A stretch of DNA of 42,934 bases. Source: Candidatus Omnitrophota bacterium (GTDB taxonomy: Bacteria > Omnitrophota > Gorgyraeia > Zapsychrales > Aceulaceae). How positions within the stretch are numbered: position 1 is the stretch's first letter; each line of letters opens with the position of its first letter. The stretch spans positions 1 through 42,934 of the forward strand of contig JAKQPK010000045.1 in assembly GCA_029564765.1 (NCBI GenBank), written 5' to 3'. Under the pieces are notes generated by a model. It was not told the origin of the DNA. It ran no database searches and worked only from the letters and a program-made list of their open reading frames with translations. A program made the position numbers and the translations under genes. Shown here piece by piece: positions 6,051 to 9,349 of this stretch.

Positions 6051-6479
6051 ATGGGATTCAATAGCCAGAGCGCGTTAACCGTGTTTGAACGATCGATCAT
6101 CCGGGTGCTGATCCTTTTGATGATGATCACGATCCTTTTTGGGACTATCGAGCTGGGGTATGTTATCCTCAAGACTCTTCTTGCGCCGCCAATGTTTTTG
6201 TTCAGCTTGGAGAGCCTGCTGGATATTTTTGGGTTTTTCTTCATGATTTTGATCGGGATTGAAGTTTTGGAAACGATCAAGGCGTATATCAAGAAAGACC
6301 ATATCCACGTTGAGATCGTTTTTTTAGTCGCGATGATCGCTATTGCGCGCAAGGTCATTATTTTGCAGATGGACAAGATCGATCCCTTAGGGTTGATAGG
6401 GATTGCGGCGATCATTTTATCATTGACTGGAAGTTATTATATTATTAAAAAAACGTATAATGTAAAAGATGAAGAATAA
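6051..6479 (+). CDS. PsiE-family (phosphate-starvation-inducible) membrane protein
   Basis: This 142-residue protein has an excellent AGGAGG site before ATG 6051. It has four membrane helices: about 15-37, 47-70, 88-105 and 113-132. The amphipathic segment IKAYIKKDHIHVEIVFLVAMIAIARKVI is the most conserved part of the PsiE family. PsiE proteins are inner-membrane proteins of unknown biochemical function, named for phosphate-starvation induction in E. coli. No Pho box is evident upstream. The gene is followed by a 437-base gap, so it likely ends a transcription unit, though no clear terminator follows immediately. Confidence 0.85.
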   Translation: MGFNSQSALTVFERSIIRVLILLMMITILFGTIELGYVILKTLLAPPMFLFSLESLLDIFGFFFMILIGIEVLETIKAYIKKDHIHVEIVFLVAMIAIARKVIILQMDKIDPLGLIGIAAIILSLTGSYYIIKKTYNVKDEE

Positions 6480-6591: not shown

Positions 6592-6620
6592 TTGCAAGAT
6601 AAAAAGAACGGGAGTAGAAT
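6592..6620 (+). promoter_or_regulatory. Sigma70-type promoter for a candidate small RNA
   Basis: A -35 TTGCAA (6592-6597) is separated by 17 bases from a -10 TAGAAT (6615-6620). Transcription should start near 6627. The only nearby downstream element is a short transcript ending at the terminator at 6687-6718. Confidence 0.55.
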
Positions 6621-6626
6621 ACAGCC

Positions 6627-6718
6627 AATTACGTAGGCATGGAGGAGTTGGTATGAGAGCTTGGCTCCTATAGAATGTGTTTTTTAGGGCAGTCCCGCCA
6701 AAGCGGGACTGCCCTTTT
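6627..6718 (+). ncRNA. Candidate small RNA of about 90 nt, or leader transcript with mini-ORF MRAWLL
   Basis: The unit is bounded by the promoter at 6592-6620 and a perfect terminator. Inside it, GGAGGAG at 6641-6647 precedes ATG 6653 and a six-codon ORF (MRAWLL, stop 6671-6673). AGCCAA near the 5' end can pair with TTGGCT at 6661-6666, which would enclose the ribosome site and mini-ORF. It could be a trans-acting small RNA, a leader peptide or a premature-termination product. I do not recognise a known RNA family. Confidence 0.45.
6687..6718 (+). terminator. Intrinsic terminator, 12-bp perfect stem
   Basis: GGGCAGTCCCGC (6687-6698) and GCGGGACTGCCC (6703-6714) pair perfectly around a CAAA loop, followed by TTTTCCTTTTTT. 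This is one of the strongest terminators in the window. It closes the candidate small RNA and could also catch read-through from the PsiE gene. Confidence 0.9.
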
Positions 6719-6810
6719 CCTTTTTTAAATATCTTCAGGTTCCATATATAAAAATGACTTCTTAGCTTTTGCGCGAATTTAGTGATCCTCGTCTCAAGGA
6801 GGTAACGCGT

Positions 6811-6861
6811 ATGAATGTCAATGTCAAAGGACCCGTAGGGTATTCAGGGGGCAGTCCTTAA
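6811..6861 (+). CDS. Mini-ORF MNVNVKGPVGYSGGSP (possible leader peptide)
   Basis: A near-perfect AAGGAGGT site (6796-6803) lies seven bases before ATG 6811, and 16 codons follow before TAA at 6859-6861. The last five codons and the stop overlap the left arm of the palindrome at 6847-6881, so a ribosome finishing the ORF would block that hairpin. AAGGAC at 6827-6832 could pair alternatively with GTCCTT at 6854-6859. This layout resembles attenuation leaders upstream of the cheD-like and EF-G-like genes, but no enriched control codon is obvious except Gly. The peptide may be fortuitous. Confidence 0.35.
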   Translation: MNVNVKGPVGYSGGSP

Positions 6862-6881
6862 AATCTTTAAGGACTGCCCCC
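6847..6881. repeat. 16-bp perfect palindrome with 3-nt loop (attenuator or REP-like)
   Basis: Arms 6847-6862 and 6866-6881 are exact reverse complements around the loop ATC, starting GGGGGCAGTCC and ending GGACTGCCCCC. The following TTAAAATTTT is only a moderate U-tract, so termination is possible but not certain. The core GGGCAGTCC/GGACTGCCC is shared with the terminator at 6687-6714. The form also resembles GGGACAGTCC-type palindromes that I associate with REP/RAYT elements; this was not verified. Confidence 0.75.
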
Positions 6882-6916
6882 TTAAAATTTTAACCATTTT
6901 AGATCGGAGGAGCTCA

Positions 6917-7372
6917 ATGAAAAGATCCGTTAATGTGCATAAAGGAGAAGCAACAGCGGGATGTGGTGAGATCATCTTGAAGTCAGATGTTCGCGATACT
7001 TCATGCTTTTGTATCATCGCTCGTGATGCGGCACATAAAATAGGGGCTTTGGCTCACGCTCTTTTTATTCACGGGGGAGCCAAAGAGAAAAAAGACCCTT
7101 TGCTCAACAAGGAAGCCAGACAAGCCATCGACAAGATGCTGTCCAATATGACTTTATTAGGCGCTCAGCCAAAAGATATTGAGGTTGAAATGATCGCCAG
7201 CGAAAATGTCCGACACGATGATCCCGATCAAGATTTTGAAGAAGAGGTGCGGTGTATTTGCGATGTGCTAAAGGAACGCCATATCAAATGTCGCGAACAC
7301 ATTGTTCAGGATATCGGAGCGCATCATGCGGCTTTGGACGTTGAAACAGGTAAGATTTTTTTAGAAGACTAA
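6917..7372 (+). CDS. Divergent CheD-like (glutamine deamidase fold) protein
   Basis: The 151-residue protein follows a GGAGGAG site. It aligns by pattern with CheD, the chemoreceptor glutamine deamidase. C30 in DTSCFC and H47 in GALAHAL have the same 17-residue spacing as the catalytic Cys and His of CheD, and it ends with the family-like DIGAHHAALDVETGKIFLE. Several conserved features are altered: the usual TxGLGSC becomes SDVRDTSC, so the conserved Thr is missing, and the GGA motif is replaced by ASENV. No chemotaxis gene is nearby. It lies 30 bases upstream of an EF-G paralogue and is probably cotranscribed with it. It may be a deamidase acting on a non-chemotaxis target, but activity is uncertain. 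Confidence 0.65.
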   Translation: MKRSVNVHKGEATAGCGEIILKSDVRDTSCFCIIARDAAHKIGALAHALFIHGGAKEKKDPLLNKEARQAIDKMLSNMTLLGAQPKDIEVEMIASENVRHDDPDQDFEEEVRCICDVLKERHIKCREHIVQDIGAHHAALDVETGKIFLED

Positions 7373-7402: not shown

Positions 7403-9349
7403 ATGGAAGCTAAATTTAAACGTGATATAGCCCTTTTGGGTCATGCGCATGCTGGTAAAACATCTCTGGCGGAAAGCCTTCTGTTTTTTGCTGGAGAAAT
7501 ATCCCGCAAGGGTGATGTCCAAAAAGGGAATTCAACCAGTGATTTTAATGAGGATGAAATTAGTCGCCAAATTTCGATCAATACTAGTCTTTTGACGGCT
7601 CGTTTTCGAGATCATCAGATCCAGATCTTGGATACTCCAGGCTATTCTGATTTTATCGGAGAAACGATATCCGCCCTTAGGGCCGTAGATTCAGCGATCT
7701 TGGTTGTAGACGCTGTTAATGGTGTCGAGACCGGAACAGTTGATATTTGGGAAAAGCTGGAAGATATGAACATGCCTAGGCTTATTTTTATCAATAAAGC
7801 GGATAAGGCTGAGGCAGATGTCGATCAGGTGATCAAAAATCTTCAAGAAGATCTTTCATCAAAAGCGCGTGTTATCAATTTTGCTGACGCGTCCTTCATT
7901 GAGGCTGTGGCAGAAACTGATGATACGTTGATCGAGAAATATTTAGAGCAGGGAAGTTTATCGGCAGATGAAGCTGTTTGCGCTTTGCATAAAGCTGTTT
8001 TGCAAGGGCAGATCTTTCCGATCTTAAGCGGAAGCGCTTTTCTGGATCAGGGTATCAAAGAATTGATGGAAGCTGTCCTGGCTTATCTGCCTTCACCGAT
8101 CGAACATCCGGTGCTGGAAGCCCACATCCCTCATTCTCAAGAGATCAAGCGCATTTTGCCTTCTGAGCAGGCTCCTTTGTCCGGATTTGTTTTTAAGTCG
8201 ATGTTTGATCCACATTTGGGGCATTTGTCCTTGGTCCGCATTCTTAGCGGAACACTTAAACCCAACACGGCCTTTCTCAACGCTAATCAAGGGGCTAAAG
8301 AAACTGTCAGCTCTATCACGATGCTCAAGGGAAAGGAACAGATCGCTGTTTCGCAGGCCAGCTGCGGGGATATTGTCGCGTTGCCAAAATTAAAGAATAC
8401 GCATGCGTGTGATACATTGTGTGAGGATAGGGAACCTGTTGTTTTTGATCCGATCACTTTTCCAGAACCTTCCATTTCTGCTTCTGTCAAGCCTAAGACG
8501 CGTGCGGATGAAGAAAAAATATCCACAAGCCTGCATAGGCTTTGTGAGGAGGATCATACGTTTCGCGTGCATCGGGATAACGACACCAAAGAGCTTATTG
8601 TTTCTGGGGTTGGAGATCTGCATCTTAAGGTTATTTTAGAACGCATGAAAAGCCGTTATCATGTGGATGTGGATTTAGGAACGCCTAAAGTTTCTTATCG
8701 TGAAGCGATCACAAAAACGGCGCGGGCACGTTATCGTTATAAAAAACAGTCGGGTGGGCGGGGGCAGTATGGCGATGTGGAGCTTGAGCTCTCTCCTTTG
8801 CCGCGCGAAGGGCAAGAGTTTGAGTTTGTGGACAAGATTTTTGGTGGAGCGATCCCCAAAAGTTATGTCCCTTCAGTAGAAAAGGGCGTGCGACAAGCTT
8901 TTCATGACGGTATCTTGGCTGGATACCCGATGATGAATGTTCGTGTTACCGTTCTCGATGGATCCTATCATGATGTTGATTCTTCGGACATGGCGTTCCA
9001 GATCGCTGCGGCTATGGCATTTAAGGAAGCCGCCAAGTTGGCCGCAGCGGTTATTTTAGAGCCGATCATGGAGACGAGTATTATTATTCCTGATGAGTTT
9101 GTAGGTCAAGTGACCAAGGATATCAGTTCTCGCCGTGGAAAGATCATGGGCTCAGATTCTAAAGGAAAAAGCCAGACCATCAAAGCGCTGATGCCCTTGA
9201 CGGAAATGTTTAGATACGCCACGGACCTTCGTTCGGTGACAGCGGGGCGAGGGCATTACACGATGAAGTTCTCGCATTATGAGCGAGCGTCGGAAAAGGT
9301 AGCAGCGCAGGTGATCGCTGAGCGCCAGCATATCAGAAAAGAATCATAG
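7403..9349 (+). CDS. Elongation factor G-like GTPase (EF-G paralogue)
   Basis: At 648 residues this is shorter than ordinary EF-G (about 690-700). The GTPase domain shows the P-loop GHAHAGKT (13-20), DTPGY, NKAD in place of the usual NKxD form NKMD, and SGSA. The switch I region reads DEISRQISINTS rather than ERGITI, which is typical of EF-G-like paralogues rather than the main translocase. Domain II (FVFKSMFDPHLGHLSLVRILSG), domain III, the domain IV stretch SGGRGQYGDVELE and the C-terminal EIIxP-like region (LEPIMETSIIIPDEFVGQVTKDISSRRG) are all present. It follows the CheD-like gene by 30 bases and ends at an intrinsic terminator. It may act in ribosome recycling, rescue or stress translation, or as a second EF-G; sequence alone cannot decide. 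Confidence 0.88.
   Translation: MEAKFKRDIALLGHAHAGKTSLAESLLFFAGEISRKGDVQKGNSTSDFNEDEISRQISINTSLLTARFRDHQIQILDTPGYSDFIGETISALRAVDSAILVVDAVNGVETGTVDIWEKLEDMNMPRLIFINKADKAEADVDQVIKNLQEDLSSKARVINFADASFIEAVAETDDTLIEKYLEQGSLSADEAVCALHKAVLQGQIFPILSGSAFLDQGIKELMEAVLAYLPSPIEHPVLEAHIPHSQEIKRILPSEQAPLSGFVFKSMFDPHLGHLSLVRILSGTLKPNTAFLNANQGAKETVSSITMLKGKEQIAVSQASCGDIVALPKLKNTHACDTLCEDREPVVFDPITFPEPSISASVKPKTRADEEKISTSLHRLCEEDHTFRVHRDNDTKELIVSGVGDLHLKVILERMKSRYHVDVDLGTPKVSYREAITKTARARYRYKKQSGGRGQYGDVELELSPLPREGQEFEFVDKIFGGAIPKSYVPSVEKGVRQAFHDGILAGYPMMNVRVTVLDGSYHDVDSSDMAFQIAAAMAFKEAAKLAAAVILEPIMETSIIIPDEFVGQVTKDISSRRGKIMGSDSKGKSQTIKALMPLTEMFRYATDLRSVTAGRGHYTMKFSHYERASEKVAAQVIAERQHIRKES

Follow-up and report, generated by a model that had tools for sequence, protein, structure and literature searches.

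Does a short intergenic stretch that carries its own promoter and terminator encode a free-standing small RNA, or is it one part of a larger regulatory arrangement? The question is raised by a locus in a contig from a metagenome-assembled genome of a Candidatus Omnitrophota bacterium, of which 42,934 nucleotides were analysed (hereafter the window). Downstream of psiE, a first-pass annotation had proposed an undescribed small RNA with an embedded six-codon open reading frame (ORF). Here, we find that this unit is one copy of a leader that stands before an operon with a cheD-like gene and a second EF-G, and we consider the chances slightly better than even that it is the 5′ leader of this operon and acts as a translation-sensing transcription attenuator. 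Leader anatomy, conservation, covariation, the exclusive link to the operon and the fixed spacing between start codon and terminator are computed results; how the leader would act is our reading of them.

Anatomy of the locus

The promoter, GGAGGAG site, MRAWLL frame and terminator that the first-pass annotation had described are all in place (Table 1), as confirmed from the sequence and by a consensus scan. The terminator had been called a perfect 12-bp stem; it is perfect, and its length is 13 bp. Transcription of this unit (unit 1) is expected to start near 6627. A single promoter match of this quality is not rare, as 3 kb of scanned sequence held 11 matches of 9/12 against 5.4 expected. 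The window has six terminator-like hairpins, and that of unit 1 is both the strongest and the only one with a short Shine-Dalgarno (SD)-led ORF before it. Folding of 6626-6722 gives a z-score of -3.9, a signal due to the terminator; without the terminator, the region folds no better than shuffled sequences (z -0.14). This bears on AGCCAA (6623-6628) and TTGGCT (6661-6666), which had been said to pair around the SD and the ORF: they can do so, but the pairing has no statistical support, and the favoured fold has the SD paired with GGCUCC instead. Unit 1 rises above chance because it is conserved, that is, homologous units also have an SD-led short ORF ending at the hairpin.

Table 1. Positions of the leader units and neighbouring genes in the window.
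Feature	Position	Strand	Sequence or basis
psiE	6051-6479	+	gene upstream of unit 1
Unit 1 promoter	6592-6620	+	-35 TTGCAA (6592-6597), 17-nt spacer, -10 TAGAAT (6615-6620); 9/12 consensus; consensus scan, and equivalent promoter before every first unit (18 operons)
Unit 1 Shine-Dalgarno	6641-6647	+	GGAGGAG; SD-like site precedes the start codon in homologous units
Unit 1 leader mini-ORF	6653-6673	+	MRAWLL-stop (ATG AGA GCT TGG CTC CTA TAG)
Unit 1 intrinsic terminator	6686-6715	+	arms 6686-6698/6703-6715, 4-nt loop, TTTCCTTTTTT tail; T-rich tail 6716-6726; hairpin covaries across units
Unit 2, whole	6788-6890		between unit 1 and the cheD-like gene
Unit 2 Shine-Dalgarno	6796-6802	+	AAGGAGG; homologous position in family mates
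Unit 2 leader mini-ORF	6811-6861	+	MNVNVKGPVGYSGGSP-stop, extends into the hairpin; ATGAATGT start common to family mates
Unit 2 hairpin	6846-6882	+	weak T-run; ends 34 nt before cheD
CheD-like gene	6917-7372	+	first of operon; predicted glutamine deamidase/methylesterase fold; NCBIfam CheD E=8.9e-9
EF-G paralog	7403-9349	+	second EF-G; switch II DTPGY, not DTPGH

Unit 2 was absent from the first-pass annotation. Two units in series are found in the window, in its family mates (G001-G003) and in one further genome (G033). A T-run follows the hairpin in nearly all homologous units, unit 2 of the window having a weak one.

The first-pass annotation had recognised no known RNA family, and an Rfam search of the window agrees: no family reaches its gathering score, and the best sub-threshold match by score is L20_leader (24.1 bits, with 58.7 needed). 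A tRNA search found none. Two simpler origins of the hairpin were rejected. One was a REP-like dispersed repeat: the genome holds three copies of the GGCAGTCC hairpin, of which two are at the unit locus, and its half-sites are no commoner than a control. The other was a terminator sequence in use across the lineage: GGCAACTC hairpins are seldom found elsewhere, by a pattern that misses the AGGGCAACTC form.

The operon behind the leader

Many bacteria have a second EF-G, and little is understood of what it does or how it is regulated. The paralog in the window has all EF-G domains by domain search, and a separate main EF-G with DTPGH is encoded in the same genome. The histidine of DTPGH is replaced by tyrosine in 12 of 12 aligned Omnitrophota paralogs. 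EF-G domain IV was sought in 19 relatives; a second EF-G turned up in G000-G003, G011, G015 and G018, and these are the same genomes that have the CheD-like gene. In E. coli, EF-G mutants of this switch II histidine mostly show impaired GTP hydrolysis and always impaired phosphate release (PMC4532990). By its sequence, the paralog would be a spare EF-G with an altered GTPase. As side observations, the paralogs (the window's 7403-9349 and homologues L034-L044) also have a changed RGIT motif in switch I besides DTPGY, lack part of the G domain and travel with the CheD-like gene, and the paralog of G001 (L065, about 2264, G001 C3) has an apparent frameshift near residue 504, either an assembly error or a pseudogene.

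The CheD-like protein matches NCBIfam CheD with the E-value given in Table 1 but at 35.7 bits, under the trusted cut-off of 243. Its profile matches the T. maritima CheD structure 2F9Z (E=1.5e-8), and Cys30 and His47 are invariant, a Cys/His pair as in CheD. By these comparisons, the gene appears to be a distant CheD relative. We know of no role for a CheD-like enzyme in translation.

Conservation and covariation of the leader

The same leader lies directly before cheD-EFG in 18 of 18 Omnitrophota operons examined. It consists of a TTGCCA-17-TAAAAT promoter, an SD, a short ORF starting (A/T/C)TG-AAY-GTN and then the terminator hairpin. Every first unit is preceded by a promoter of this type at the equivalent position. 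In 12 of the 18 operons, 31-51 nt lie between the end of the last hairpin and cheD, a gap that leaves little or no room for a promoter, so that cheD is most likely transcribed through the hairpin; some genomes have 130-270 nt between the two. The units always precede cheD-EFG, and in most genomes a separate promoter for the operon would hardly fit; the short RNA is therefore most readily seen as a prematurely terminated 5′ leader. The first-pass picture of a complete small transcription unit outside Rfam therefore holds, while its reading as a free-standing small RNA gives way, the units being found always directly before the operon of the cheD-like gene and EF-G paralog.

Conservation in relatives had been set beforehand as the test of the candidate. 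The unit is conserved, though a plain DNA search misses it (no match in 54 relatives). The leaders were first gathered by their position upstream of cheD, and their co-occurrence with it is circular when taken alone. Four parts of the comparison escape this circularity: the leader's absence from other places, the genome left out of the model, the covariation and the constant spacing. Covariation, which had also been suggested as a check, was assessed in a hairpin alignment of 22 units and 11 pairs: 98.3% of cells are paired, changes on both sides occur in 7 of the 11 pairs, and the covariation score is 0.399 compared to 0.193 ± 0.018 in shuffles.

A covariance model built from this alignment was used to search 81 genomes of the order and then 384 of the phylum. 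Matches of at least 50 bits were found in exactly the 15 of 384 genomes with a cheD-like gene of at least 200 bits, and the next-best match scored 48.8 bits. Most units of the 15 genomes had gone into the model, and the independent parts of this result are the 369 genomes without a strong match and the recovery of G072, a genome left out of the model. Where the context of matches below 50 bits was read, most proved to be ordinary terminators at the ends of genes, or look-alikes upstream of other genes. The leader is likewise absent before an Omnitrophota EF-G relative without cheD (L043), which has a plain promoter, and was not found at distant EF-G relatives in Bacillota and Eremiobacterota.

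A model that excluded the whole family of the window ranked the paired units of G001 and of G003 first and recovered G002 more weakly; it did not recover the window's own units. With only the window excluded, its units score 35.0 (unit 2, which reaches 50.1 bits with model R1) and 33.1 bits. They come second and third in the genome, where a gene-end terminator ranks first. The window's copy is the most divergent found, and it is assigned to the leader by synteny and by its family mates no less than by its score.

Two side observations concern the hairpin. The GCA/TGC core of the stem is invariant in 22 of 22 aligned units (the window's 6686-6715 compared), though neighbouring pairs covary. One locus (L003:1430-1540; G000 C2:171902) has a hairpin almost identical to the unit 1 terminator and a TTGCCT-17-TAAAAT promoter before it, with no obvious mini-ORF.

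The mini-ORF and its distance to the hairpin

Of 23 homologous units, 20 have an SD-led ORF that ends at the hairpin, where shuffled sequences would give 2.1. Conservation is concentrated at its beginning. The start codon is ATG in 11 units, TTG in 11 and CTG in one; the second codon is AAT (12) or AAC (5) in 17 of the 23; and the third is GTN in 16, with all four third bases in use. MRAWLL in unit 1 departs from this usual MNV start. Past codon 3, the peptide is not conserved and codon-position counts carry no coding signal. Neither an RLR motif nor any other conserved arrest motif of the macrolide type was found, M-N-V alone being common to the units.

The distance from the start codon to the GCA core of the hairpin is 38.9 ± 2.4 nt. 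The stop codon is more variable: its median position is 7 nt before the core, and three outliers run into or past the hairpin. Units whose ORF enters the hairpin include unit 2 of the window, G072 and L035. In the last of these (G047, L035:1437-1529), no stop precedes the hairpin, and translation of the ORF would carry on across it. With a stop codon in the A site, a ribosome extends over roughly nine bases more. Given this reach and the spacing between stop codon and core, such a ribosome would arrive at the base of the hairpin in most units and would just miss it in unit 1 of the window, where the stop codon lies 12 nt before the hairpin. For comparison, the toeprint in the vmlR leader lies 16 nt from the A of the start codon (PMC9226507).

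Competing folds were also sought. The 5′ arm of the terminator pairs with upstream sequence no more than in shuffles (mean z -0.34), and a hairpin with the SD in its loop is weak over all units (mean z 0.75). The latter is good in unit 1 of the window's family, where the arms are GCCAATT/AGTTGGT, TGACCC/GGGTTA and TGACCT/AGGTTA. The lack of a detectable antiterminator points to direct occlusion of the hairpin by a ribosome.

A leader that may sense translation

We infer from this pattern that the mini-ORF is translated, that the terminator acts and that ribosomes control it, as well as the inducing signal and the direction of control. Transcription would begin near the site given above and, by default, the polymerase would stop at the leader terminator and release an RNA of roughly 95 nt. 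A ribosome would load at the strong SD and read the mini-ORF. On arrival at the last codons of the ORF, it would touch the base of the terminator with its front edge and keep the 5′ arm unpaired; with the hairpin blocked, the polymerase would continue through cheD and the EF-G paralog. What most likely triggers this is slow elongation, termination or recycling of ribosomes, and the spare EF-G would then act on such ribosomes. In the window and its three family mates, this test would be repeated twice in series.

Several features count against attenuation: the missing antiterminator, which sets the leader apart from studied analogues, the free peptide with no coding signal, the 12-nt stop gap in the window, the weak T-run of unit 2, the G047 ORF that lacks a stop ahead of its hairpin, and the weak or failed recovery of the window's units by models built without the window or its family. 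A fuller version goes further still, and we hold it to be speculative and on the whole unlikely. In it, the leader would represent a new class of attenuator peculiar to the phylum. No antiterminator would be involved: a ribosome that has reached the end of a mini-ORF with almost no sequence constraint would itself block the terminator, which lies at a set distance. The resulting feedback loop would sense slow termination or recycling and call up a GTPase-impaired EF-G and a CheD-like enzyme that relieve the slowness, with a doubling in one family for a sharper response.

Alternative readings

The sign of control could be the opposite one, a reading that we find improbable but the most serious of the alternatives. 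Free flow of ribosomes through the mini-ORF would keep the terminator open, turning the operon on under good initiation and off when loading fails or ribosomes stall early. This would suit the conservation of the SD, start codon, MNV codons and start-hairpin spacing and the lack of conservation of the stop codon, and where the ORF enters the hairpin, any translating ribosome would open it. However, a cell would more plausibly call on an alternative EF-G under impaired translation, and the studied leaders of ribosome-acting factors (hflXr and vmlR) are induced by stalling.

A somewhat smaller chance goes to a fixed terminator with basal read-through, whereby the leader does no more than hold cheD-EFG expression steady at a low level, and the mini-ORF either is incidental or helps translation to re-initiate downstream. 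The absence of both an antiterminator and a conserved peptide is in keeping with this, and re-initiation after a leader peptide has been proposed to raise downstream translation (PMC4833913). Yet the SD, the start codon and the spacing to the hairpin are kept across families while the rest drifts.

The original idea now has a poor standing. By this reading, the unit would make an independent small RNA that acts in trans, or a short mRNA encoding a functional micropeptide, and would precede cheD by chance. This would account for the complete promoter-terminator unit and for the genomes with a wide gap before cheD. Against it, the unit is always at this one locus, at most 51 nt follow the hairpin in the 12 operons noted above, and neither the peptide nor a seed-like region is conserved: apart from the SD and start codon, no unpaired stretch is kept among the aligned units. 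The constant operon and the little room for another promoter in most genomes also speak against the trans-acting form. Finally, that the terminator belongs to psiE (upstream and on the same strand in the window) and the ORF is a chance occurrence is scarcely credible, given that the leader accompanies cheD irrespective of the upstream gene, which is not the same from genome to genome, and that a conserved promoter lies between that gene and the hairpin.

Relation to known systems

For the translation-sensing attenuator that we favour, the logic resembles, by analogy, the control of tet(M), HflXr and VmlR. The tet(M) gene encodes an EF-G-related ribosome factor, with premature termination downstream of a short leader ORF. 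Transcription attenuation in the Tn916 tet(M) leader goes back to Su et al. 1992, as cited in PMC5418344. The Omnitrophota leader shares the short ORF and, as proposed, premature termination before an EF-G-related factor; it differs in its unrelated sequence, an ORF of mostly 8-11 codons, its chromosomal cheD/EF-G operon and the tandem units of some genomes. In Listeria, rli80-hflXr similarly has a constitutive short leader RNA, also listed as a small RNA, and a short ORF before the gene of a ribosome-acting GTPase, but it uses antiterminator/anti-antiterminator folds and an RLR motif (PMC6310831), neither of which was found here. The vmlR leader of Bacillus subtilis has a tiny ORF (MIN), an essential SD and start codon, several peptide variants that work and a terminator before a ribosome-protection gene; its antiterminator, pause hairpin and SD-sequestering hairpin (PMC9226507) were not detected in the Omnitrophota leader. 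The latter would work like attenuators of the antiterminator type and is not classed as a member. Bacteroides EF-G2 (fusA2) is also a second, divergent EF-G under its own control, with the DNA-binding regulator BT4338 as the switch (PMC6989115), whereas Omnitrophota have a leader ORF instead.

A search of the literature available to us found no description of this leader. Omnitrophota, a phylum with few cultured members, hereby gain a cis-regulatory RNA family of their own that is absent from Rfam. The leader probably lets the cell make its spare EF-G only under certain ribosome behaviour, and a paralog with a dedicated leader that appears to read this behaviour makes paralog function testable. 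As a last observation, a possible SD, mini-ORF and terminator precede other genes (for a PAS protein and secreted LamG-like proteins) at L117, L118, L122 and L127 in families f15 and f36; judging by these cases, leader mini-ORFs with terminators may be more widespread in Omnitrophota.
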